A stretch of DNA of 64,000 nucleotides from Dielma fastidiosa (GTDB taxonomy: Bacteria > Bacillota_I > Bacilli_A > Erysipelotrichales > Erysipelotrichaceae), in NCBI RefSeq assembly GCF_000313565.1, contig NZ_HE578930.1:62001-126000 (forward strand), given 5' to 3'. The notes below the pieces were generated by a model. It was not told the DNA's origin. It did not search any database and was given only the letters and a program-made list of their open reading frames with translations. This document shows positions 10,566 to 21,447 of the stretch, one piece after another; the stretch's first letter is position 1; every line of letters begins with the position of its first letter. The translations under genes were made by a program, and so were the position numbers.

Positions 10566-10592
10566 AGATGGCACAGTACAGCCATCTTTTTA
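10564..10592. terminator. Terminator between rarA and the split regulator gene
   Basis: The 9-bp stem AAAGATGGC / GCCATCTTT has a T run on the plus strand and A-rich sequence on the other side. It can stop both converging transcripts. Confidence 0.8.
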
Positions 10593-11599
10593 CTTTACGC
10601 CTATAGCCTGTTCACTTTCCAATTCAGAATCCCTGCGTTTGATTTTATAAAACCAAACGATACTCAAGCCGTCAAGCAGCAGCAATATTGTCGAAATCAG
10701 AGGCTGTCCCTGTTGGCTTTTAGTCACCGGATCTTTTTTATACACGCTTCGCGCTTCATCATTAAAGCCAATTATGCCGCGGTATTCAATCAAACGATCG
10801 ATTGATTCAATTGCCTTATCTAAACCGGTTGGGTCAATGACCTTTAAATCATTTGAATAGGCAATATCTAAATCATAGACATAAAGCAGCCATTGATATT
10901 GATCTTTAAAAGTATCATAGCTTTGCTGAGTGTCAAATGTAATCGTATCTACGTGATTAACTGCTGCCCGATACAGTCCAAAACTGCCGCCAAGTATTAC
11001 TGTAAAGATGATAAGCAGTTGGGTCATCGAATGCTTGATCGTTTGTTTGCTTATACTGATTTGCACAGTATTCATTAACAGTAAAACAAACATACTGATC
11101 GTAACTAGAATCGGCAGCCATCGTATATAATCGCTGAATGTTAGATATACATAGGAAACCGTGTCATGAGCTGTCAGCTTTTGAAGCAGTAAATTGGCGC
11201 ACGGCATGACTAACAGCTGTGTTATCACCCATAGAGAACATACATTAAATAAACCAGTTGATGCCTGTTTACGGCTGATCTGATAGGCTTGTGAGCGCTG
11301 ATAAATCCGCAGAGCTATAACCAAGGCAAATAAATCGAAAATTAATTTTATCGCATAGGGTATGGAGAAATGATGAAGATAGAAATAAATGCCATAAAAC
11401 AGCAGTGTTCCGCCAATAAGCAGACAATAAGCAAACAGCAAGTAATCCTTATAATTTCCCATTAATAGCGTCTTCGTCATTATTTCATTTGGGATTGCGT
11501 TTTGATTCTTTTGATTCAGCAGTTCATCAAGCTTCATATCATATATTTCAGCAAGTCTTACCAGCATTACAATATCCGGCAATGTTCTGCCGGTTTCCC
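10590..11599 (-). pseudogene. C-terminal part of an XRE-family membrane-anchored regulator split by the mobile element
   Basis: The open frame enters from the element edge as ETGRTLPDIVMLVRLAEIYDMKLDELLN, the second half of an HTH_XRE domain (the usual W-E-x-G...LPDI pattern). Four to six hydrophobic segments and a long extracytoplasmic-looking loop follow. The missing first half of the domain, ending SQWETG, lies at 19665-19808 in the same orientation. Both pieces share GGGAAAC and join in frame to a 372-residue protein. No ribosome binding site serves this fragment, so it is probably not expressed unless the element excises. Confidence 0.85.
11593..11599. other. Left attachment core (GTTTCCC)
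   Basis: A seven-base sequence shared with the right end. It lies in the codons for Trp-Glu-Thr of the interrupted regulator. Family recombinases of this kind exchange strands at a central dinucleotide, so the true crossover is inside this core. Confidence 0.75.
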
Positions 11600-11625
11600 T
11601 TAGTTAAAAATATTACTCTTGTTGA

Positions 11626-13239
11626 TTACTCAACTTTTCCAATAAATCGGTAATATATCTCAATTTCCTGTATTCTTTCGTTATCCTCATTCGTTGTTGC
11701 TTCATGTATGAGGATTTTTTCTATCATGGCATTTAATAATGGTGCTGTCAGTTCCTTTGGTACGGAATATTCCTTGATTAACTCAATCCACTTTTCAGCA
11801 CCTATCATATCCTGTTCCATTTTACTTAGTTCTTCTCTTAGGCTTGTTATCTGCTGTTCCAGTTCTATCTGTTCTTTTTGGTACTTGCTGGACAACATCA
11901 CAAAATTTCGCTCTGTTATCTTCTCACAGGCTCTATCTTCATACATTTTCGCAAATAAACGGTCAATCTCATTTTGTCTGTTCTCGGCTTTCTTCAATGT
12001 ACTTGCCTTTTTCTTCTTTTCCCGTATTCTCTCTGCATTGCCAGCTTTCTGTATCTTGTTCAATACCTTTTCTTCGTCCTGCTGTACTGCCTTAGCCCAA
12101 TACTGCAAGCGTTCCAATACGGCTTGATACAGCACATCATAACGAATGTAGTGCATAGAACAATTACCTTTGCCAAACTGCCCGTAGTAACTGCAAGCAT
12201 AATAACTGTAAGGCGTTTTATTTGTCTTATTCGTTCCAAATCTCATAGACCAACCACAATCCGCACACTTGACAAGCCCTGCAAAAATCGGCGTTGCCTT
12301 TTCCTTTGTCTGTCTGCGTCTTGATTTTATCTGCTCCTGCACACGATAGAACACTTCCTTGTCAATAATCGGCTCGTGAGTGTTTTCTACTCGAAACCAT
12401 TCACTTTCGGGCTTACGCACTTTCTTTTTGCTCTTGAACGATACCGTAGACTGCATATTGTGAACACTGTTTCCGATATAAACCTCACTTTTCAATATCG
12501 CCTTGACATGAGCAATCGTCCACTCATAACGCTTACTTTCGGGTTTTCCCTCAAAGATATGTGCAAAAGTACCGTATCTTGTAAAATTTAGCCATGACGC
12601 TGTCGGAACTTTTTCTGCTCTTAACTGCTTTGTGATTTTTGCACTTCCGTAACCTTGATAGGCTAGGGAAAAGATTTTTTCAATAATCCATTTTGTTTCA
12701 TCATCAACCAACAGTTTTCCTTTGATGTCAGGGTGTTTCTTATATCCTAACGGAGCATAAGCACCGTAATGAGCCCCCTCCGCAAACTTTGTCTTAAATG
12801 CTGATTTGACTTTACGGCTTGTATCTCTTGCCACCCATTCATTGATGATGTTCTTAAATGGTGCAATCTCACTTTCGCCTTTTTCGCTGTCTACACCGTC
12901 ATCAATCGCTATGTAGCGGACATTATGACTAGGGAAATACAATTCTGTATATTGTCCTGTCATAATATAATTTCTGCCAAGACGGGAAAGGTCTTTCGTT
13001 ACAACACAGTTGATTTTTCCTGCCTCTATATCCTCAATCATTCTTTGAAAACTCGGTCTGTCAAAATTTGTTCCCGACCAGCCGTCATCAATATATTCAT
13101 CAATGACATTCAAATGATGTTCTTTTGCATATAAACGCAACATACTTCTCTGTGTGGTAATGCTGGAACTTTCGCCCTGTAATTCATCATCTCGGCTTAA
13201 CCTAAGATAAAGTGCAGTATTGTAAATCTGTTGTTTCAT
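11626..13239 (-). CDS. Large serine recombinase (TnpX/TndX-type)
   Basis: A 537-residue site-specific recombinase expected to excise and integrate the element. The N-terminal resolvase domain (about 1-160) has the catalytic serine in YLRLSRDD (S15) and VVTKDLSRLGRNYI with conserved arginines. A recombinase domain follows (GYGSAKITKQLRAEKVPT, about 170-300). Next comes a zinc-ribbon with CADCGWSM and YYACSYYG about residues 325-360, and then a long coiled coil rich in Glu and Lys (about 395-480). It is at the extreme left edge with its 3' end facing outward, as in Tn4451 and Tn5397. GGAGGATAACTGACA precedes the ATG. Confidence 0.95.
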   Translation of the reverse strand: MKQQIYNTALYLRLSRDDELQGESSSITTQRSMLRLYAKEHHLNVIDEYIDDGWSGTNFDRPSFQRMIEDIEAGKINCVVTKDLSRLGRNYIMTGQYTELYFPSHNVRYIAIDDGVDSEKGESEIAPFKNIINEWVARDTSRKVKSAFKTKFAEGAHYGAYAPLGYKKHPDIKGKLLVDDETKWIIEKIFSLAYQGYGSAKITKQLRAEKVPTASWLNFTRYGTFAHIFEGKPESKRYEWTIAHVKAILKSEVYIGNSVHNMQSTVSFKSKKKVRKPESEWFRVENTHEPIIDKEVFYRVQEQIKSRRRQTKEKATPIFAGLVKCADCGWSMRFGTNKTNKTPYSYYACSYYGQFGKGNCSMHYIRYDVLYQAVLERLQYWAKAVQQDEEKVLNKIQKAGNAERIREKKKKASTLKKAENRQNEIDRLFAKMYEDRACEKITERNFVMLSSKYQKEQIELEQQITSLREELSKMEQDMIGAEKWIELIKEYSVPKELTAPLLNAMIEKILIHEATTNEDNERIQEIEIYYRFIGKVE

Positions 13240-13264
13240 TGTCAGTTATCCTCCTTTATAACTA

Positions 13265-13325
13265 ACCCGTGTTTACAATACCTGCTTGCAAGTAAAGTAT
13301 AACACGGGTACTTTTTGTCATTCAA
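13265..13325 (-). promoter_or_regulatory. Recombinase promoter with an overlapping inverted-repeat operator
   Basis: On the minus strand TTGAAT (13320-13325) and TATACT (13296-13301) are 18 bases apart. A perfect 9-bp inverted repeat, ACCCGTGTT / AACACGGGT (13265-13273 and 13301-13309), brackets the -10 and start region. It suggests repression by a dimer. The sequence between the arms (CCTGCTTGCAAG) recurs at the right end of the element. Confidence 0.6.
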
Positions 13326-13350
13326 TCTATTTCTTACAACTGCACCGATT

Positions 13351-13518
13351 TTATGCGATTGTCTGCTTTGCTTTTTCCAGCATGACATCAGTTAGAAGTT
13401 CTTCCATTGTTTTGCCCTTTTCGGAAAAATGCTCTTTTACTACAATCTTTGTCTTTCCTCTGTTGCCAATGCCACACTTGCCATTTTTCTTTTGAATTGT
13501 TTTTACAGCATTATCAAT
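13351..13518 (-). CDS. TnpW-like transposon-encoded small protein
   Basis: A basic protein of 55 residues reading IDNAVKTIQKKNGK, then KTKIVVKEHFSEKGKTMEELL. This is the pattern of the TnpW family (a KTI-K-IG start, then VHFSxTSKET-like text), found next to TnpX-type recombinases. No ATG or good GTG/TTG precedes the conserved start. The position matching the family methionine is ATT at 13516-13518, eight bases after AAAGGGGG, so ATT may be the start. A longer reading from TTG at 13560 has no ribosome binding site. Role in transposition not established. Confidence 0.6.
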   Translation of the reverse strand: MDNAVKTIQKKNGKCGIGNRGKTKIVVKEHFSEKGKTMEELLTDVMLEKAKQTIA

Positions 13519-13960
13519 AACACATACCCCCTTTCTGTAAAATCTTTCTAAGCAATTCAACGGCTTTTGTCATAGCCCACAGGAGTTCCACCTCTGCATA
13601 GTTCTTATGTAGCCGTACCCATTGCGTGCGACGCTCTTAATGCTCAAGCTGTGGCTGTACGGGAGTATCATTATCTGACAGTACAGGTCATGGCGATAAA
13701 AGAGGACAAATCTTTTACAAGAACACAAATAGGTTTTCGCTCGCTCTTGCAGGGGAAAGGTCGTGGCGTATTTGTTTCAACGGCTAGCTGTCTGTCAAAC
13801 GTATTGAATTACTTTATTCAGTTGTCAAAGAACGATTGAAAGAAAAAAATCGTCTTTCCTATATATCGCGTTGGAAAAGAGGAGAAACGTAACCAAAATC
13901 CAAAACTTTTTCCATTATTAGTACAAATGGAACGGTTCATTTTGGCAATCAACGGTTGAT
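13519..13960. other. Intergenic region with a short open stretch upstream of the TnpW-like gene
   Basis: No complete gene is recognised. On the minus strand, 40 sense codons (13514-13636, after a TAA) read a protein-like helix, QWVRLHKNYAEVELLW, and end with a TGA overlapping the TnpW-like start. It lacks a convincing start codon, so it may be the remnant of a larger gene coupled to the next one. The rest is A/T-rich and leads into the repeat array. Confidence 0.35.
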
Positions 13961-14515
13961 TTTCTCCTTTTTCACTACTATCTGTACAGCAAACGTCCAT
14001 TTGCTAAGTTTAAATGGAAAAATTTTAACTTCTTTTCATGCACCATATAGGGATAGAAAATGTCATTTTGCTAAGTTGATGATGAAAAAAGAATATTTTC
14101 CTTTTCACACCCTAACTACCCAAACCATACCGTTACTGCCAACAATAGAATGAAATATTTTCTTTGCACCATATAGGGAACGGAAACCTTAAATTGTTAA
14201 GTTGAGAACAAAGTATTTTCATCTTTTCACATCAACACTCAACTGCTAATGCCTGTTTGAATACAAAATGATGATGTTTTTCCTCTTTTCACAGAAGACT
14301 GTCCACTAATCACGAATTTCCGTCATTTTTTCAAAACTTTTTTCTTCTTTCACTTCATATAGGGACAGCAAGCCCCGATTTAATGACCTATTTTCAAAAA
14401 AAGTTTAGATTTCCTTTTCTCGCACCATATCTGTACGCAAGTAGCCATTTTGTTGCAGATTTAATAAAAAATTTATTTTTCTTCTTTCACTTCACATAGG
14501 GAATGAAAACAGCTC
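13960..14515. repeat. Array of about nine degenerate direct repeats with ~65-bp period
   Basis: Units begin near 13966, 14031, 14101, 14158, 14223, 14286, 14347, 14413 and 14480, that is every 57-70 bases. The common core is TTTTCA-n-CACCATATAGGGAA followed by GAAAA, and a second block resembling TTTTGCTAAGTTGA. Five units keep CATATAGGG or CATATCTG; others have drifted. The array fills the gap 3' of mobT and holds no reading frame. Placement beside the relaxase gene suggests an iteron-like or single-strand-origin role, but this is inference. Confidence 0.65.
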
Positions 14516-14548
14516 TTTGCTGACTAAATCTGAAATTTTTCAATTACA

Positions 14549-15763
14549 TTAAAAAATACCGTCATTCTCTTGTGGAACAGCGGTATCTATACGTTCTTCT
14601 ATGGTTGATTTCTCTAATTGTAATAAATGTTTATGCTTGTCTTTTAGTTCTGCCTGCTCAATCATATCTTTCAGTATCGTTGTACGATTTTCTCTGTCTA
14701 ATGCCTGTACCATTTTTATGGTTGGTGCGACTTGTCTTTGTAGCCAATGCAACGCTTTTTGTAAAGTGTAAGGCTCTGGCTTTGTGGTTAAGCGTATCGG
14801 CTCTCTGTTTTCCCCTACAAACCATGCCCAATCATCATTTGTTATCCATTGACTTTTTGGCTTGTCGTCCTCTCTGTCAACAAAGCGGACATAATGATTG
14901 ATGATAGAAAAAGCGGTGCGTTCAGCGTCCCGATAGGTCAGTAAATCTACAACCGCATAATAGGCTCGTTCGTTCTTCATGCGTATTTCAAAACGGTTCT
15001 TAATCTCCGTATCTTCAATTTCTGTGCCATTCTTGACATACTGCTCATAATTTTTCTGATAAGCACACATATATAATTCGCTACTTGTTGAACCGAGATA
15101 TAAGGTTTCTCCTGTATTCTTTGGTAAATCGCTACCGCATTTTTCTGTACCGCTGTAATCTTTCTGCATACGGAAGTAGGAGATACATTCGCCAGCCTTG
15201 TATTTTTCCTTTAACTTTGGAATATCCAATATTCCTGCTTTATCATTGATAGCCAAATCAAGCCGTTTCATCACACCACCAGCCGTCATACAATCCAGCA
15301 TGAAGTCATACCATGAGCGTTCCTGTGCCAGTAGATAACATTCCATTTGCCGACAGCCTTTGCCTTTCAGTTCCAATAAAACACCTAAATGCTCCTGCAT
15401 GGAACACATGATATTGATGTCGCCAAGTACATATTTGCTTTCATATCCGTATTTTCCATAATCTTCATAAAGCATGTAATTAGATTTCAGTTGTAATACA
15501 TCACGGATAATCGCCAATGCGTCCGTAGTAGGAAAGCGGACACGAAAGTAATCAATCAATAAGAATAGTGGTTCTTGCGGATTGAAACGCTCAATCTGTT
15601 TTTCTATGATTTCTCTTAATTCGTCATTCAATGGCTGTTTTCCTTTTTCAATGCGGTTGTAATATTCACGGCTGATACCACAGGCAACAGCAAGCCTTGT
15701 TTGTGTTACTCCGTATTCCTCACGCTTTTGTCTTAGTTCTTCAATAAAGTTTTTATCATTCAT
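14549..15763 (-). CDS. mobT: MobT-type relaxase / replication initiation factor (Tn916 Orf20-like)
   Basis: A 404-residue protein. Residues 8-60 form an XRE-type helix-turn-helix (KREEYGVTQTRLAVACGISREYYNRIEKG). The rest matches the Rep_trans/replication-initiation-factor family: FLLIDYFRVRFPTTD, LDLAINDKAGILDI, GETLYLGSTSSELYMCAYQKNYEQ, IKNRFEIRMKNERAYYAV, and the tail LHWLQRQVAPTIKMV. The length equals Tn916 Orf20. Such proteins nick oriT and also start rolling-circle replication. It starts after GGAGGAATTGAAGA. Two hairpins lie upstream of it, so its level may be controlled by attenuation or termination. Confidence 0.9.
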   Translation of the reverse strand: MNDKNFIEELRQKREEYGVTQTRLAVACGISREYYNRIEKGKQPLNDELREIIEKQIERFNPQEPLFLLIDYFRVRFPTTDALAIIRDVLQLKSNYMLYEDYGKYGYESKYVLGDINIMCSMQEHLGVLLELKGKGCRQMECYLLAQERSWYDFMLDCMTAGGVMKRLDLAINDKAGILDIPKLKEKYKAGECISYFRMQKDYSGTEKCGSDLPKNTGETLYLGSTSSELYMCAYQKNYEQYVKNGTEIEDTEIKNRFEIRMKNERAYYAVVDLLTYRDAERTAFSIINHYVRFVDREDDKPKSQWITNDDWAWFVGENREPIRLTTKPEPYTLQKALHWLQRQVAPTIKMVQALDRENRTTILKDMIEQAELKDKHKHLLQLEKSTIEERIDTAVPQENDGIF

Positions 15764-15781
15764 TCTTCAATTCCTCCAATC

Positions 15782-15866
15782 AAAAAAGGCAACTACCATA
15801 ATTGATAATTGCCTGTCATTAAAAATCTGTATAGAAAAAGCAGTCAATCCTAAGACTAACTGCTTT
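15782..15866 (-). terminator. Tandem hairpins between the GyrI-like gene and mobT
   Basis: Reading the minus strand, hairpin one is AAAGCAGT / ACTGCTTT followed by TTCT. Hairpin two is GGCAA / TTGCC (with more imperfect pairing inside) followed by TTTTTT, only a few bases before the mobT ribosome binding site. A related pair of hairpins occurs at 16765-16865. Confidence 0.65.
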
Positions 15867-15890
15867 GTGTGTATGGATATAAAATTGCTT

Positions 15891-16361
15891 CTAATCTTGA
15901 ATAGGTATCCAAATTTCAATAACTGAATTATCACTATTCCAATGAAAACGATAATCGTATTTTTCAAAGTGTAGGATAATATCTTTTATAGGAATATACG
16001 ATGTACTAGGAATAATTTCTTCATAAATCTTGCCATAAGTTTCATATATTTTATCCATAGCACCAATATGCTCCACAACCAAATATTTATAAGACGGTAT
16101 TTCTTTATACAGAAAGCCCTCTGGGGTAATGGTTCTTTGGGGAATAGAACAGAAATAATAAAGTTTTCCATTTCTTCTTTCCATAAAAGCATATTTTACC
16201 CAATTTCCTGATTGTGAAAGATACGCTTTTTTCAAACTACTGTTAAACTTTCTCCAAAACTGTGTACTAATCTGAATATTCTTTTTTTGATAATTAGTCA
16301 GTTCTACTTCCTGCCCAATAACTGCAAATGCGTTTAATTCCTTTATAGAAAAATTTATCAT
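15891..16361 (-). CDS. GyrI-like / AraC effector-binding domain protein
   Basis: A 156-residue stand-alone effector-binding protein: MINFSIKELNAFAVIGQEVEL, then FWRKFNSSLKKAYL, KLYYFCSIPQ, then YKYLVVEHIGAM and the C-terminal strand VIEIWIPIQD, the typical ends of the GyrI/SOUL-like fold that binds small hydrophobic compounds. Its ATG overlaps the stop of the DUF3781 gene (ATGA), so the two are co-translated. Cargo of the mobile element; a drug-sensing or sequestering role is possible by family only. An alternative upstream start (16418) lies inside the DUF3781 gene. Confidence 0.8.
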   Translation of the reverse strand: MINFSIKELNAFAVIGQEVELTNYQKKNIQISTQFWRKFNSSLKKAYLSQSGNWVKYAFMERRNGKLYYFCSIPQRTITPEGFLYKEIPSYKYLVVEHIGAMDKIYETYGKIYEEIIPSTSYIPIKDIILHFEKYDYRFHWNSDNSVIEIWIPIQD

Positions 16362-16600
16362 TTTACCTTGTGAGAAGTGATAACGGTATAACTGTACGCA
16401 TTTACCGTTATAATACAATTATCAATCGTTATATACCAGTTTTTTCCTTTTCTTGTGATTTCCGCATTAGAAAGGCTAATTTTTTCTTTGCACCATTCAA
16501 TTACATTTTCTACATTCAAAGATAAGTTCTTTTTAATTCTAATAACGCCAAGTTCAGTTGTGTGAAGTCTTCCTAAGTTTTCCAGTAATTCATTTTCCAT
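16358..16600 (-). CDS. DUF3781 family protein
   Basis: An 80-residue protein with MENELLENLGRLHTTELGVIRIKKNL, then VIEWCKEKI and GKNWYITIDNCIITVNAYSYTVITSHK, the pattern of DUF3781 (LHTTELGxxRIKKNL...DNCxITINAxSYTIITAH). Function is unknown. Members often sit beside GyrI-like or AraC genes, as here with a four-base overlap. The start at 16600 was chosen over the in-frame one at 16615 to fit the family start; neither has a strong ribosome binding site. Confidence 0.8.
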   Translation of the reverse strand: MENELLENLGRLHTTELGVIRIKKNLSLNVENVIEWCKEKISLSNAEITRKGKNWYITIDNCIITVNAYSYTVITSHKVK

Positions 16601-16865
16601 ATTTTGATACCTCATTTTTCAGCAAATTTATTTGTATGTTTTATACCCCAATTATAACATTCTCATATCAGCACTACAATAAAAATAATTAAGCACCAAT
16701 AATCTTATTGAACATCTCCAACCGTAAATCTTTCACACCATCAGTGATAAACACTGAGCTGACAGCAATTACGACAACTACCATAATTGCCTGCACTTAA
16801 ATTTCTGCAAAAGAAAACGACAATCAATTTCTTATTTTTTGAAATCAACTGTCTTTCTCATATTT
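16601..16865. other. Leader region upstream of the DUF3781 gene with a second hairpin pair
   Basis: No gene. On the minus strand an imperfect hairpin, GACAGTTGATTTC / GAAATTGATTGTC, is followed by a T-rich run (16820-16862), and GCAATTA / TAATTGC brackets CAACTACC (16765-16790). The text CAACTACCATAATTG and its surroundings also occur at 15790, ahead of mobT. The module is therefore duplicated on both sides of the DUF3781/GyrI pair. Confidence 0.5.
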
Positions 16866-16869
16866 ACTA

Positions 16870-17110
16870 TTCAATTTTCATAGTGATATAGGTACAATTT
16901 ATATCACTACTGTAAAAATGGGGTTTTGCCTTATAAATACAGCGTTTTCCGCTTGTTAGTGTATAGTGTTTCTTGTTTTTTGTGCCCCCCTTGTTAGATA
17001 ACGGGGGCTTTGAACGGCTCGCAAGCTCGCCGAACCGCCGAAGCGAACCGCCCCCTTGCAAGCATGGCGGAAAAATCTTAAGGATTTTCCCGCCAACGTG
17101 GTCGGATCGC
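16870..17110. other. Candidate origin of transfer (oriT)
   Basis: A gene-free, G/C-rich region packed with inverted repeats. TAGTGATATA / TATATCACTA lies at 16879-16909. The stem GCCCCC / GGGGGC encloses TTGTTAGATAA (16984-17008). Another pair, GGCGGAAAAATC / GATTTTCCCGCC, lies at 17064-17093. On the minus strand the central hairpin reads CCCCCGTTATCTAACAAGG, which resembles the C-rich / TAACA / G-rich nick region known for MobT relaxases such as those of ICEBs1 and Tn916. It lies 5' of mobT, as in Tn916, separated by the DUF3781/GyrI cargo. Confidence 0.6.
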
Positions 17111-17145
17111 TCCGTCGGTTTAACAGCTTTTCTGTTTCTCTCTAG

Positions 17146-17676
17146 TTATCTACGCATATAAATCAAATCGGTTATTCCGTTATAAGTCTGTGTTTTACAA
17201 AGCCTTAACTTTATTTCCCTGTCTATGTTGCCCAAAAGACGAACCCCATTTCCTAACAGAGTAGGAATAACAGAAATGTAATATTTATCAATCATATTTT
17301 TGCTTACCAACTGCTGAACAAGATTTGCTCCGCCACAAATCCAAATATCCTTTCCTGCTTCTTGTTTTAGCCGTTCCAATAATAAAACAGGATTTTCACT
17401 TGTAAAATGAATTTGTTGGGAAGAATTGCACTCTTTATGTGTTAATACATAAGTTGTAAATTTATTATATACCCATTCTTGCGGAGAAAGTTCAGTAACA
17501 ACCTGATGAGAAGTATTCCACCCCATTAAGACAGTATCTATATCTTTGGTAAATTCTGTATAAGTGTCGATGTTTTCATTGTCATTTCCATGACCATTTA
17601 GCCAAGCTACTCCACCATTACCGTCCGCAATATATCCGTCAAGGCTCATGGCAATAAATAAAACTACTTTTCTCAT
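17146..17676 (-). CDS. Dihydrofolate reductase family protein (RibD C-terminal type)
   Basis: A 176-residue protein with the RibD_C/YwjB-type DHFR fold: MRKVVLFIAMSLDGYIADGNGGVAWL at the start, TVLMGWNTSHQVV in the middle, and DIWICGGANLVQQLV with the NADPH-binding GG. It is shorter and different from true folA enzymes. Proteins of this group occur as cargo in Firmicutes mobile elements; the substrate is not known. The gene lies beside the oriT candidate and upstream of the tiny membrane ORF, all on the minus strand. It has a weak ribosome binding site (AAAAGAGAAAAA). Confidence 0.85.
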   Translation of the reverse strand: MRKVVLFIAMSLDGYIADGNGGVAWLNGHGNDNENIDTYTEFTKDIDTVLMGWNTSHQVVTELSPQEWVYNKFTTYVLTHKECNSSQQIHFTSENPVLLLERLKQEAGKDIWICGGANLVQQLVSKNMIDKYYISVIPTLLGNGVRLLGNIDREIKLRLCKTQTYNGITDLIYMRR

Positions 17677-17706
17677 TTTTTCTCTTTTATAAATACAAAC
17701 AGGAAT

Positions 17707-17802
17707 TTATTTCTCTTTTTTACTCATAAGGGAACAACTGATTGCTACAAATAAACCCATTAAAATCCATGGAAATGCTGCTCTTATAAAATCACTAACC
17801 AT
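17707..17802 (-). CDS. 31-residue predicted membrane protein
   Basis: A small ORF, MVSDFIRAAFPWILMGLFVAISCSLMSKKEK, read here from its parts: a short polar start, one hydrophobic helix of about 18 residues and a KKEK end. A textbook ribosome binding site AAGGAGG lies seven bases before the ATG, which argues that it is translated. It sits between the broken DinB gene and the RibD-like gene in the element cargo. No function can be assigned. Confidence 0.6.
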   Translation of the reverse strand: MVSDFIRAAFPWILMGLFVAISCSLMSKKEK

Positions 17803-17857
17803 ACTTTATTCCTCCTTAAATTCCAATTTCCTTAGTTCTACAAACTGAAATTTTTGC

Positions 17858-18514
17858 CTATGAATGTATCTTGTTCTTTATACGCAAACAGGCTTCTGTG
17901 TGCATAATCCAATGTCTTGAAAACGGCATTTGAATTAGTCCACAAATATCTTTATTACACCAATAATCAATCAGCCAAATTGCTTTTTCATTGTCGTTTA
18001 CTACATTCAACGATTCTAAGTATCCTTTTCTTTCTTTCGGTATTTTTCTTTTCAATTCATCATAAGATAACCGTTCAAGCATTTTCTCAGTGCTTTCCCA
18101 TACTTCGAAAATATATAAATATAATTCTTCCAGATTAAGCTGTTTTGAAAAGTCTGCAATCTGCTGTTTCATGAGTTCATTTCCTGTTGTAATGATAGGT
18201 GAATTGATACGCTCTTGATAATTGCCTGCAAAAAATACTTGTTCATCTTCATTTATCACTGTATGCACAACTATATCTTCAATGCGGAAAATATGCCAAA
18301 TAGAATAAGCAATCGTCTTACTATGATAACCATCAGCGTTTATGAAGGGGATTGAGTTAAAATCTTCTCAGCATAATTCTTCTTTGAAAGATACTAAGGT
18401 TTGTATTAACTGACTTCGTAAAGTAAGTAAAGTATCAATACCCCTCTTATAAGTATCTTTCTTTTTTATTTGTGCCTGCATTGTTTTATTAAGTTCAGAC
18501 CATTCCTTATTCAT
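17858..18514 (-). pseudogene. DinB-family protein gene interrupted by an in-frame TGA
   Basis: The frame starts at ATG 18514 (MNKEWSELNKTMQAQIKKK) and reads to FKEELC, where TGA (18368-18370) interrupts. It continues in the same frame as EDFNSIPFINADGYHSKTIAYSIWHIFRIEDIV to the natural end at 17858, 218 codons in all. The last part has the four-helix DinB/DUF664 look with metal-ligand histidines (IWHIFRIEDIV; FSRHWIMHTEACL). A CGA-to-TGA change giving the family's L-R-E-D text would explain the stop. The downstream part alone could start at ATG 18268 but would lack the first helix and part of the metal site. Cargo next to dfrF. Confidence 0.75.
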
Positions 18515-18651
18515 ATTCAATACTCTCTCAAATTCTGATTTTATCGCCCCATACAAATTATTTCGTAAACAATCGGCGTCAGGACAGAGGAAAAAGCAGA
18601 CTACATTTAGAATGTATCTGCCCATTCCTCTGGACTGCACACCGATTTTTA

Positions 18652-18717
18652 CCAATTGAACCAAATCGCTGCGCCACAGCCTTGGCAGGCCATCGCGCAG
18701 CGATTTGGTTCAACTGG
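18652..18717. repeat. 23-bp inverted repeat with 20-base loop
   Basis: CCAATTGAACCAAATCGCTGCGC (in two pieces: CCAATTGAACC at 18652 and AAATCGCTGCGC after it) pairs with 18695-18717 with one mismatch. The loop is G/C-rich (AGCCTTGGCAGGCC), unlike the A/T-rich surroundings. It has no T run, so it is not a standard terminator. It could be a scar or end of an older insertion between the DinB gene and dfrF. Confidence 0.7.
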
Positions 18718-18796
18718 AATTTGTCTTACAACAATTTATATATGCATAAAAAGCAATATATTTATGAAAACACCCTAAATCCAAAATTTACTCAAT

Positions 18797-19270
18797 TCAT
18801 TTTTTCCTTACATAAAATGTTCTCGTATATTTCACTTCCTCACCAAGTGTTTCCCCTATCAAAACTTCAAAATCATTGATATCAAATTCTGGAAAGAATG
18901 TATCTCCATCTTCAATATTTAAATCTACTTCTGTGATATACATTTTATCTACTATTTGCAAAGCTTCCTTAAATAGTCCATATCCACCAGATATGTATAC
19001 ATCTCGTCCTTTAGCCAATAATAATGCATCTTCTAATGATTTAACTGAAACTAAATTATCTCCTTGATACTCTGTTGTGGTGGAAACAACAATATTCATT
19101 CTATTAGGCAACGGATGACCGATTTCTTCATAAGACTTTCGCCCCATAATAACCACATTACCCGTTGTTAACTCTCTAAATTGCTTTTGTTCTCCCTTTA
19201 TTTTCCATGGTATATTACCATTCTTGCCTATAACATTATTCTTTGACCTCGCAACAATCAAACCTATCAT
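18797..19270 (-). CDS. dfrF: Trimethoprim-resistant dihydrofolate reductase, DfrF-like
   Basis: A 157-residue DHFR that reduces dihydrofolate to tetrahydrofolate. It begins MIGLIVARSKNNVIGKNGNIPW, with the conserved IGKNGxIPW substrate loop, then VVIMGRKSYEEIGHPLPNR (NADPH binding), DVYISGGYGLFKEAL and MYITEVDL, the usual DHFR order. The text matches my recollection of DfrF from enterococci and streptococci, which confers trimethoprim resistance. It is on a mobile element, which fits acquired resistance. It has GGAGGATG ahead of the ATG and its own promoter. The host's own folA is not in the window. The name should be confirmed by alignment. Confidence 0.82.
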   Translation of the reverse strand: MIGLIVARSKNNVIGKNGNIPWKIKGEQKQFRELTTGNVVIMGRKSYEEIGHPLPNRMNIVVSTTTEYQGDNLVSVKSLEDALLLAKGRDVYISGGYGLFKEALQIVDKMYITEVDLNIEDGDTFFPEFDINDFEVLIGETLGEEVKYTRTFYVRKK

Positions 19271-19392
19271 CTATTTCATCCTCCATAATATGATGTCGTA
19301 CCTGTGATTCCATCAAGTGCACCACATCTTAACAAACTCAAAATTATCTCGAACTAACCAGCTCGACAAATTCCTTTTTTGTCTTCATCTGC

Positions 19393-19422
19393 ATTATATC
19401 ATATTGTTATAAGCATTGCCAT
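19393..19422 (-). promoter_or_regulatory. Candidate dfrF promoter
   Basis: Minus-strand TATAAT (19393-19398) with ATGGCA 18 bases upstream. It lies about 120 bases before the dfrF start, leaving a long leader. Confidence 0.45.
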
Positions 19423-19426
19423 TTCT

Positions 19427-19548
19427 TTTCTGCTTTTGAAAAGTTACTTATCAGCCTATGTTTTGTAAAGGGTGATATTCAGCATTTCTCACGCAACAAG
19501 CCCTTGACAAACCATAGACTAATAAGTTTTAAGGTAATCAAGCAGAAA
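19427..19548. repeat. Long imperfect inverted repeat near the right end of the element
   Basis: Arms of about 46-48 bases share TTTCTGCTT at the outer end and, with a few changes, ACTTATCAGCCTATG then TTTGTAAAGGG at the inner end. The loop is 28 bases. The mismatches keep many pairs, so a cruciform or long RNA hairpin is possible. No T run follows. Confidence 0.7.
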
Positions 19549-19574
19549 TGAAATAGTCTGCTGTTTCACGGCAA

Positions 19575-19611
19575 CAAAAAAGAGATACCAACACACTTAT
19601 GTAGTATCTCT
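19575..19611 (-). terminator. Terminator facing transcription from the interrupted regulator
   Basis: Minus-strand stem AGAGATAC / GTATCTCT followed by TTTTTTG. It would stop transcripts entering the element from the regulator promoter on the right. Confidence 0.75.
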
Positions 19612-19635
19612 TAGTCTAGTAGCAATATTCTTTTG

Positions 19636-19657
19636 TTTGCAAGCAGGTAAACATGGG
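19636..19657 (+). repeat. Right-end copy of the sequence found in the recombinase promoter
   Basis: TTTGCAAGCAGGTAAACATGGG here resembles the minus strand of 13266-13292 (CTTGCAAGCAGG, then GTAAACACGGG after a four-base insertion). The two copies are in opposite orientation and may bind the same protein. Confidence 0.55.
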
Positions 19658-19664
19658 CTGTTTC

Positions 19665-19808
19665 TTAATATCTTTTTGTTTGGGAAACACCAGTTTCCCA
19701 TTGACTGATTGTTTTATTTGAAATATGCAGCTTATCCGCCAGCTGCTGCTGAGTCAGGTTGGCATTTTTACGCAAATAGAGTAAACGTTCGTTCAGCTTC
19801 TCCATCAT
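19665..19808 (-). pseudogene. N-terminal part of the XRE-family regulator split by the mobile element
   Basis: Starts MMEKLNERLLYLRKNANLTQQ and continues QLADKLHISNKTISQWETG, a complete first half of an HTH_XRE domain (about 40 residues). It then runs seven codons into element sequence and stops at TAA 19665-19667. GGAGGGATCA precedes the ATG. The remainder of the protein is at 10590-11599. As it stands, the cell could make a 47-residue peptide with most of the DNA-binding helices but no membrane part. Confidence 0.88.
19693..19699. other. Right attachment core (GTTTCCC)
   Basis: Matches the left core. Next to it on the element side is an inverted copy: GGGAAAC-ACCA-GTTTCCC spans 19682-19699, giving the right end a small palindrome that the left end lacks. 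Confidence 0.75.
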
Positions 19809-19893
19809 TGATCCCTCCTTCTACCTTCATTGTAACTGAAAAAGCCTAGTCTTTCGCTCTATAAATAAAAGAATTTATCAATCAATTACAGAA

Positions 19894-21447
19894 TCAGCTT
19901 TCAAAGTTAAATGGCTTGCCTGTATATTTCTTAAAATCTTTGACGATCCGTTTGAAATTCTCCCGTTCATAAATTTCTAAAATCCTGCCATTGATAAACG
20001 CCAGTTCCTTTTCCCTTGGTAGCTTGGAGATTGTCAGCAAATGATCACTGGTTGTTTGCATCGGCACCGTCGTGAGAATCAAATCATAATCACGCAAATC
20101 ATCATTGCCCTCAACTTGATAAGGAATGATTTTCAAGATACTGATGCAGGGTATCTTTTTCAGCAAGATAGAAAATAGCGTTTTATATTCAAAACTATTG
20201 CAGTCATGAATTACGACTGTACGCAGACTGACTTTGTTCTTTTCAATACAGTAATCAATGATATAAGTCAGATTATGGATAAAACGGTTTGTATAAGTAA
20301 TCTTATAGTAATTCATTGAAACAGCTAAAATTTCCTTGGCAACTTCTTTAATGACATAAAAGTTCAAATGTGAGAGGGCGTAATAATCATCGCGTGTCGG
20401 GTTATTATCACGGACATTGTAGATTGCTTCCCGCATGATCAATGAATTATAATCATTCTTGAATTCATTTAGAGAACTTTCATTTAAAGCAAAGTGCTGT
20501 TTCAGACAGTGCGTCACTTCATCGATGCAAGATTCAGGCATCTTTAATAATGGCACGGTAATTTTATCAACATGTTCATGATTTGTAGTTGCTACCGATA
20601 GCAGAAGAACAAAAAGATAGATTCGCTCATCCTGCGGCAATGTGATTTTGAATAAATCCTCAGCCAGCGTGTTCATATAATTAAGATATGGCTTCATTTC
20701 AGCTGTATTAATTAATTTCAGTTTATTCTCAGTCATCGTTACAAAATGACTTTCACTGATCCGCACAATTGCCACTAAAATGAAGATTCTCAAGAAATTC
20801 CGATCATACTTAGATATAAATAAATCATATTGCTTAACAATTTGCGTGATGAATTGTTTCACATCATCAAAAGGGATACGATCAGTATACGCTTTAAGGA
20901 TTTGGGTAAGATCCAGCGGACATTGATCATCCGCAGCATTCATTGACTCCGCAATCAGATGCGCAATTGCCAGCCGGAGCCGTTTCTCCCCATAATAAAT
21001 CTTCAGTCCGTTTTTGCGTGATACTAACAGATCGATGTGATATACATTCAGCCAAGCTTTCGCAGCTTCAATAATTGGTTTAATCGAAGAACGGGAAATA
21101 TGAAAGTAAACTTCTAAATCAGAAATATACAGTTCACTTTGTTTGACCATCAGCAAATATAACAGAAAATAGAGCTTTTCATCCTTGGAAGGCTCTTCTT
21201 TTTCTTCATAGATAATCATTGATCCAATCGATAGTTTTTTCTCAGCTACTTCATTAATAAAATATCCCTTACCCCGAACACATAAAAGCTCGCACTGCTT
21301 TTCTTCACAAATGCGTTTTACTTGCCCCATATAAGTTTTAACACTGCGGCTCGATATCATTAACTTATCCGCAAGGGCTTGAGATGTAATATATTCATTG
21401 CTTTCACATAAGATTTTAAATATTTTTAACGTTAACAGCTGTTCCAT
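19894..21447 (-). CDS. PRD-type (BglG/MtlR-like) transcriptional regulator
   Basis: A 517-residue regulator. It has an N-terminal HTH_11-like domain (LKIFKILCESNEYITSQALADKLMISSRSVKTYM), a second Mga-like HTH (about 105-185), helical PRD-like segments (about 200-400) and a C-terminal EIIB-like Rossmann part (SLRTVVIHDCNSFEYK). Such proteins are phosphorylated by PTS components and switch on the adjacent sugar operon, which begins divergently 137 bases away. The start at 21447 is preferred because GAGAGGG lies five bases upstream; the ATG at 21537 has none. Being a DNA-binding activator rather than an RNA antiterminator is inferred from the HTH domains. Confidence 0.8.
   Translation of the reverse strand: MEQLLTLKIFKILCESNEYITSQALADKLMISSRSVKTYMGQVKRICEEKQCELLCVRGKGYFINEVAEKKLSIGSMIIYEEKEEPSKDEKLYFLLYLLMVKQSELYISDLEVYFHISRSSIKPIIEAAKAWLNVYHIDLLVSRKNGLKIYYGEKRLRLAIAHLIAESMNAADDQCPLDLTQILKAYTDRIPFDDVKQFITQIVKQYDLFISKYDRNFLRIFILVAIVRISESHFVTMTENKLKLINTAEMKPYLNYMNTLAEDLFKITLPQDERIYLFVLLLSVATTNHEHVDKITVPLLKMPESCIDEVTHCLKQHFALNESSLNEFKNDYNSLIMREAIYNVRDNNPTRDDYYALSHLNFYVIKEVAKEILAVSMNYYKITYTNRFIHNLTYIIDYCIEKNKVSLRTVVIHDCNSFEYKTLFSILLKKIPCISILKIIPYQVEGNDDLRDYDLILTTVPMQTTSDHLLTISKLPREKELAFINGRILEIYERENFKRIVKDFKKYTGKPFNFES

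Follow-up and report, generated by a model that had tools for sequence, protein, structure and literature searches.

The window, i.e. the whole stretch of 64,000 nt of Dielma fastidiosa DNA that was analysed (contig NZ_HE578930.1), contains a probable integrative mobilizable element (IME) with cargo genes and a candidate transfer origin (oriT; Table 1). The IME carries its own recombinase and mobT, and no T4SS gene was detected among the 10 proteins examined with Pfam. Neither was a coupling protein found among these ORFs, hence transfer of the element should depend on a helper. Positions 11589-19701 are matched at 99.9% in the Enterococcus faecium plasmid NZ_CP065930, in which 95% of the region 11500-19900 is present in pieces of 99.9% identity, split by copies of IS1251. 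In four related loci (L003, L004, L006 and L010) the aligned similarity to the window stops at or near the same IME ends. Near-identical copies occur in records of Enterococcus, Blautia and Eubacterium; an element with trimethoprim resistance sits nearly unchanged in E. faecium and several gut anaerobes.

Table 1. Features of the IME and its predicted oriT, given as positions in the window.
Feature	Position	Strand	Remarks
Integrative mobilizable element (IME)	~11590-19702	.	~8.1 kb; GTTTCCC at both ends
Large serine recombinase, 537 aa	11626-13239	-	Resolvase, Recombinase, Zn_ribbon_recom, DUF4368
mobT relaxase, 404 aa, N-terminal HTH	14549-15763	-	Rep_trans PF02486 (E=3.5e-72), Rol_Rep_N, HTH_3
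Hairpin resembling a terminator, with T run, directly ahead of the mobT ribosome-binding site	15787-15814	-	1 found vs 0.8 expected in shuffles
Cargo insert between oriT and mobT, missing from compact relatives	15849-16782	-	alignment to L006 interrupted at 15848 and 16783
GyrI/Cass2-like small-molecule-binding protein (cargo)	15891-16361	-	
DUF3781 protein (cargo)	16358-16600	-	
IR2, predicted site of the MobT HTH, TAGTGATATA-n9-TATATCACTA	16881-16909	-	centre 102.5 nt from nick
IR1-IR2 spacer, 74 nt	16910-16983	-	
IR1 nic hairpin	16984-17008	-	predicted nick T16996/A16995 (CT'AA, in loop); CT'AA rule from PMC9371924
Two direct repeats GCGAGC adjoining IR1	17017-17030	-	
Branched hairpin 5' of nick: long outer stem, inner hairpin 17065-17095	17035-17118	-	covariation, model R1, folding vs shuffles
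RibD_C/dihydrofolate-reductase-like cargo gene	17146-17676	-	Pfam
dfrF, trimethoprim-resistant dihydrofolate reductase	18797-19270	-	DHFR_1; annotated dfrF in the matching E. faecium plasmid

The mobT product combines a Rep_trans domain (PF02486) with an N-terminal HTH, as is characteristic of MOBT relaxases. Against the NCBIfam model MobT (NF041493) it reaches 571.7 bits over 381/383 positions, which is under the curated cut-off of 600 bits, a naming threshold and no defining trait of the family. The conserved motif-III tyrosine of this class is present as Y235, which is invariant in 13/13 aligned MobT proteins. Judged from the YxxxY motif, it would be the counterpart of Y252 in RelSt3. The alignment places the recognition helix at R32-E33-..-R37. 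In a structure model, residues 32-39 are helical (pLDDT of the block 87) and the HTH belongs to the best-predicted parts; the mean pLDDT of the model is 63 and only the HTH part was used. The closest PDB entry by sequence is the GST Rep protein 4cij, and no structure of a MOBT relaxase was among the PDB sequence matches.

An initial annotation of this DNA had proposed an oriT at 16870-17110 around a hairpin GCCCCC-n13-GGGGGC. This hairpin, here called IR1, is exact at 16984-16989 / 17003-17008; its minus strand reads GCCCCCGTTATCTAACAAGGGGGGC and contains ATCTAACA, as claimed. It is accompanied by two further inverted repeats, at 16881-16890/16900-16909 (10 nt, perfect, 9 nt apart) and 17065-17077/17083-17095 (13 nt, 92%), and lies 5' of mobT, the gene being 3' of the hairpin on the same strand. 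The proposed span takes in IR2 and the nic hairpin as well as the greater part of the structure 5' of the nick, which reaches to ~17118-17123 and hence past 17110. A GC-rich hairpin with CT'AA in its loop is the arrangement of MOBT oriTs. Within the 64 kb, the pattern C-run/CTAACA/G-run matches at this site only, with two overlapping hits; 100 dinucleotide-preserving shuffles yielded no match. The 271-bp oriT region is present as a single copy in the whole D. fastidiosa genome. A genome scan with the MobT of the window as query gave 24 related loci, 19 of which have IR1 according to the strict pattern; the covariance model R1 adds IR1 in L022 and, more weakly, in L023. Tn916-family oriTs (L030, L034) have the core TATCTAACA in common with it, likewise within a C-rich/G-rich hairpin. 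The site of ICEBs1 is presumably alike (PMC9371924).

The loci L041, L046 and L053 contain oriT-like copies that are decayed or orphaned, with no recognised mobT in the surrounding ~1.5 kb; in L046 the 5' structure is mostly gone. In many small viral contigs (L161-L323), the same CTAACA/G-run hairpin precedes Rep_trans-like ORFs for which no HTH was aligned; these hairpins are probably rolling-circle origins of small phages with the same nic sequence. A scan of viral contigs with the MobT of the window found no relative, and a class-wide search with the protein of L122 gave no new lineage.

The second element, IR2, lies at a fixed downstream distance, as in MOBT oriTs. Among readable relatives its centre is found 100.5-104.5 nt from the nick, while the distance from nick to mobT ranges from 123 to 4248 nt; IR2 therefore belongs with the nick and not with mobT. 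When the strongest inverted repeat was sought freely in the range of 45-150 nt from the nick, other hairpins were often chosen, e.g. a terminator-like one near +140, and this search was abandoned. The centre was then restricted to 92-112 nt, which biases the result towards IR2, and a palindrome profile over all centres served as control. For 68 distinct oriTs this profile peaks 102.5 nt from the nick, where 24 have a score ≥ 6 compared to 0-7 at the other listed centres; the remaining 44 are below 6 at exactly this position, with shorter arms or centres 1-2 nt off. Comparison of 16 distinct rows gives 9 two-sided changes in the arms, a number reached by 0/500 shuffles, and 4 pairs with a two-sided change, reached by 38/500. 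In L122, the half-sites are ~27 bp apart rather than 16-17, about one helical turn more, at nearly the same centre.

The initial annotation had called the separation of the oriT from mobT by two cargo genes unusual. This holds with respect to most relatives, since 12 of 18 loci (those from the MobT scan with both IR1 and a mobT start) have 203-252 nt between nick and mobT, but the separation is not unique: L003, L004, L005, L007, L008 and L013 have 1002-1542 nt. Since these six hold cargo in the gap and the cargo differs among locus groups, the gap is a recurring cargo slot. A segment of ~53 bp with a terminator-like repeat (15835-15887) has matches of 82-98% in several genomes, often close to ICE genes, and is also present in further plasmid records. 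Together with 16630-16783, it may delimit a cargo cassette that can be exchanged. Two hairpins with T runs, 16783-16858 and 15787-15814, lie between oriT and mobT; they are kept in compact relatives and could attenuate mobT. In the E. faecium plasmid copy (L002, 8253-11259), IS1251-type elements lie just past IR2, which results in a nick-mobT distance of 4248 nt with IR1 and IR2 intact.

On the other side of IR1, the mobT (minus) strand forms a structured 5' flank (17118-17009). In 17 IME-type rows, 11/17 pairs of the outer stem show two-sided changes. The covariation score of the whole structure, 0.296 compared to 0.161 (sd 0.014) in shuffles with 0/500 as high, is overstated by these shuffles because the rows are related; it is also far above that of slid versions. 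Among 289 cells of the outer stem, 27 G.T and 3 A.C pairs indicate the mobT-sense strand, with 9 of the 27 in one column pair and the structure having been chosen on that same strand. Upstream regions of MOBT oriTs fold with z < -2 in 63/66 distinct cases (median -4.7), downstream regions of the same oriTs in 27/66 (median -1.7). Among 392 genomes sampled across the phylum, model R1 found strong matches (E < 1e-17) in five besides the own one. No Rfam family came near its gathering score over 15500-19900, hence the flank is no known RNA. No published description was found in the literature, available partly as excerpts, and the flank may still be described somewhere. It was considered as positional counterpart of a known ICE single-strand origin (sso), and this was rejected because sso1 of ICEBs1 is located downstream of nicK (PMC4595007) and sso916 downstream of orf19 (PMC9154091). 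An sso function is still conceivable, since most RCR plasmids have the sso upstream of the double-strand origin (PMC4595007). Perhaps the folded flank is a single-strand origin or a relaxosome platform.

The recognition helix was compared with the half-sites of IR2. Of 48 distinct helix/IR2 combinations collected, 35 were readable for both and all 35 agree: E33 goes with G at half-site base 4 (TGTGA, 26/26), Q33 with C (TGTCA, 4/4, one having A in the left arm), and T, P or N33 with T (TGTTA, 5/5, one readable only in the left arm). The others comprise three combinations without helix residues in the alignment and ten without a readable IR2 (L015/L016 with one arm only, L027, L028, L029, L040, L121, L123, L126, L143). 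The MobT of L010 is 93% identical to that of the window; of the 30/404 differing positions, 12 fall within residues 33-52, and both arms of IR2 have changed as well. Such natural pairs with changed helix and changed arms make the rule directly testable.

Two scans of viral contigs, selected solely by the IR1 pattern, had already been run when the rule was fixed, but were analysed only afterwards. The scans gave at least 163 sites, at least 108 of them with a Rep_trans-like ORF. Among the matches listed, 14 distinct rows had an aligned HTH helix (the spurious L244 was dropped by hand) and 12/14 were readable, L211 and L175 being unreadable. All nine rule-covered rows among the matches listed agree (L322, whose IR2 was read by eye, L283, L284, L209, L176, L270, L181, L312 and L182); most are near discovery members, and L182 is the clearest new lineage. 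Three rows go beyond the rule, given as residues 33 and 37 and base: L316 (Q,K: C), L288 (P,D: C) and L238 (S,K: C). A rule on residue 37 alone was discarded, as L316 (Q33, K37) has C. A tree of the catalytic domain, built from 62 rows of which 51 have an IR2 base, requires at least 6 changes of this base and at least 8 of residue 33. For E against not-E there are three independent pairs, all of which agree (p 0.25, with significance out of reach at this number). From these comparisons, the core base of IR2 appears to track residue 33, with few phylogenetically independent cases. The balance tips slightly towards a code in which MobT residues 33 and 37 set base 4 of TGTNA (E with R/K: G; Q: C; T/P/N with Q/M: T), beside a strongly folded 5' flank, conserved among MOBT oriTs in general, whose fold is kept although its sequence varies. 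In E. coli CRP, Arg180 contacts G2, while Glu181 and Arg185 contact the G4:C4 pair of TGTGA (PMC11253593). The R-E-x3-R spacing of R180-E181-R185 is the same as that of R32-E33-x3-R37 in MobT, a likeness of spacing and target, not homology.

Several known systems share parts of this anatomy. In ICESt3, as described in PMC9371924, the GC-rich hairpin also has CT'AA in its loop, and RelSt3 binds through its HTH to IR2, 68 bp beyond IR1 (74 bp here), with two 13-bp arms (10 bp here) which are likewise 9 bp apart. There, IR2 is needed for mobilization, and the exchange R32A-R35A in the corresponding helix abolishes IR2 binding. The half-sites found here are of TGTGA type (AGTGA in the window) and deviate from the published consensus TGTCAC; since the source itself calls this consensus only "almost systematically present" (PMC9371924), it is no strict mark of membership. 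Unlike in ICESt3, the relaxase gene is 1.2 kb off and the element is an IME. Tn916 and relatives (Orf20) share the core, an IR2 at ~101 nt and a structured 5' flank, but have TGTCA in IR2, 5' hairpins unrelated in sequence, and an oriT that lies 127-128 nt before the relaxase gene and adjoins the coupling-protein gene. Streptococcal MobT IMEs (IME_oriTs and others) are also small, with their own Rep_trans relaxase, and borrow ICE machinery (PMC7563843). In contrast to these, the element described here has a serine recombinase and is not integrated in an ICE oriT. Its MobT has an HTH and is 54% identical to a Tn916-type protein; the relaxase of IME_oriT, by contrast, is reported to be only remotely related to known MobTs. 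Double-strand origins of pT181 type share the CT'AA hairpin and a binding repeat, which, unlike here, is directly beside the nick and read by the Rep C-terminus (PMC9371924).

The proposal of a transfer origin is thus supported: IR2 lies at the position of the RelSt3 site in ICESt3, and the oriT as such is conserved in whole-element relatives. Very probably, as judged from sequence comparison, 16881-17118 is the oriT, and probably also a rolling-circle origin, of a MOBT-type IME. This kind of oriT is already known; what is new, and testable, is the rule linking helix and base, together with the folded flank. An oriT which was once guessed is now defined and testable, on an element with trimethoprim resistance.

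Based on the anatomy, conservation, spacing and covariation observed here, and on ICESt3 and Tn916 work as regards binding, nicking, covalent attachment, looping and helper use, the following working is proposed. The serine recombinase would excise the IME circle first. A MobT dimer would then dock by its HTH on IR2, i.e. on two TGTGA-type half-sites about two helical turns apart. With IR2 kept ~102 nt from the nick, the spacer could loop back such that the IR1 hairpin enters the active site, where Y235 would cut CT'AA on the minus (mobT-sense) strand and stay attached to the 5' end. AACAAGGGGGG, IR2 and mobT would lead into the recipient and the structured 5' flank would enter last. By analogy, the IME should borrow pore and coupling protein from a helper, as another Rep_trans IME does from an ICE (PMC7563843). 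A candidate is the Tn916-type ICE in the same genome, which has genes for an FtsK-domain (TcpA-like) coupling protein, a second MobT (54% identical) and TcpF. Its helix reads TRQ and its IR2 arms TGTAA and TGTCA. According to the helix-base rule, this relaxase should not serve the IME, and the IME should therefore bring its own MobT. If the code is true, neither the resident ICE (Q33, TGTCA) nor the IME (E33, TGTGA type) should recognise the IR2 of the other, and oriT cross-talk between co-resident ICEs and IMEs becomes predictable from sequence; a residue-to-base rule for MOBT relaxases would allow predicting which integrative elements mobilize which.

The site could instead be a double-strand origin only, at which MobT nicks the excised circle for a stabilising rolling-circle replication without conjugative transfer. 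Rep_trans initiators have the same CT'AA hairpin (PMC9371924), the viral contigs mentioned above carry it before ORFs without an aligned HTH, and no coupling gene was seen in the IME. Yet the near-identical copies in Enterococcus, Blautia and Eubacterium need cell-to-cell transfer, and an IME with a Rep_trans relaxase was shown to transfer (PMC7563843), which makes this reading improbable. An oriT left as a relic, severed from its relaxase by the cargo insert, would resemble the degenerate copies without a recognised mobT nearby (L041, L046, L053), but here, as in the near-identical copies of several genera, IR1, IR2 and the 5' structure are all intact, the mobT reading frame is open, and relaxases act in trans (PMC6499999); we regard it as highly improbable.

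Two alternatives concern single parts of the predicted oriT. HTH_3 proteins are often repressors, and in compact loci IR2 sits between nick and mobT, which would fit an operator for self-repression of MobT in place of an oriT binding site. Such an operator is unlikely given that IR2 stays at its set distance from the nick, but not from mobT, when ~0.75-4 kb intervene, and that its ICESt3 counterpart is needed for mobilization (PMC9371924); both roles may coexist. More room is left for a role of the 5' structure (17009-17118) as RNA instead of DNA, in which it would serve the mobT operon as a terminator or an antiterminator: it lies on the same strand as mobT, the excess of G.T over A.C (27 vs 3) in the outer stem fits RNA, and an RNA antiterminator, canT, is known from another part of Tn916 (PMC11658703). 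Still, this is doubtful, as the structure adjoins IR1 in intact copies while its distance to mobT varies, no T run follows it, and no Rfam family reached the gathering score. The G.T bias itself does not separate RNA from single-stranded DNA, because the transferred strand is the same strand.

Two minor observations concern the setting of the IME. The element appears to split an XRE-type regulator gene, whose C-terminal part would be the ORF 10590-11582 (the flank, from 19703 on, was read by eye); a Pfam scan of this ORF gave no match. Between the cargo genes, ~66 bp at 18652-18717 match their own opposite strand at 82% and thus form a long imperfect palindrome.
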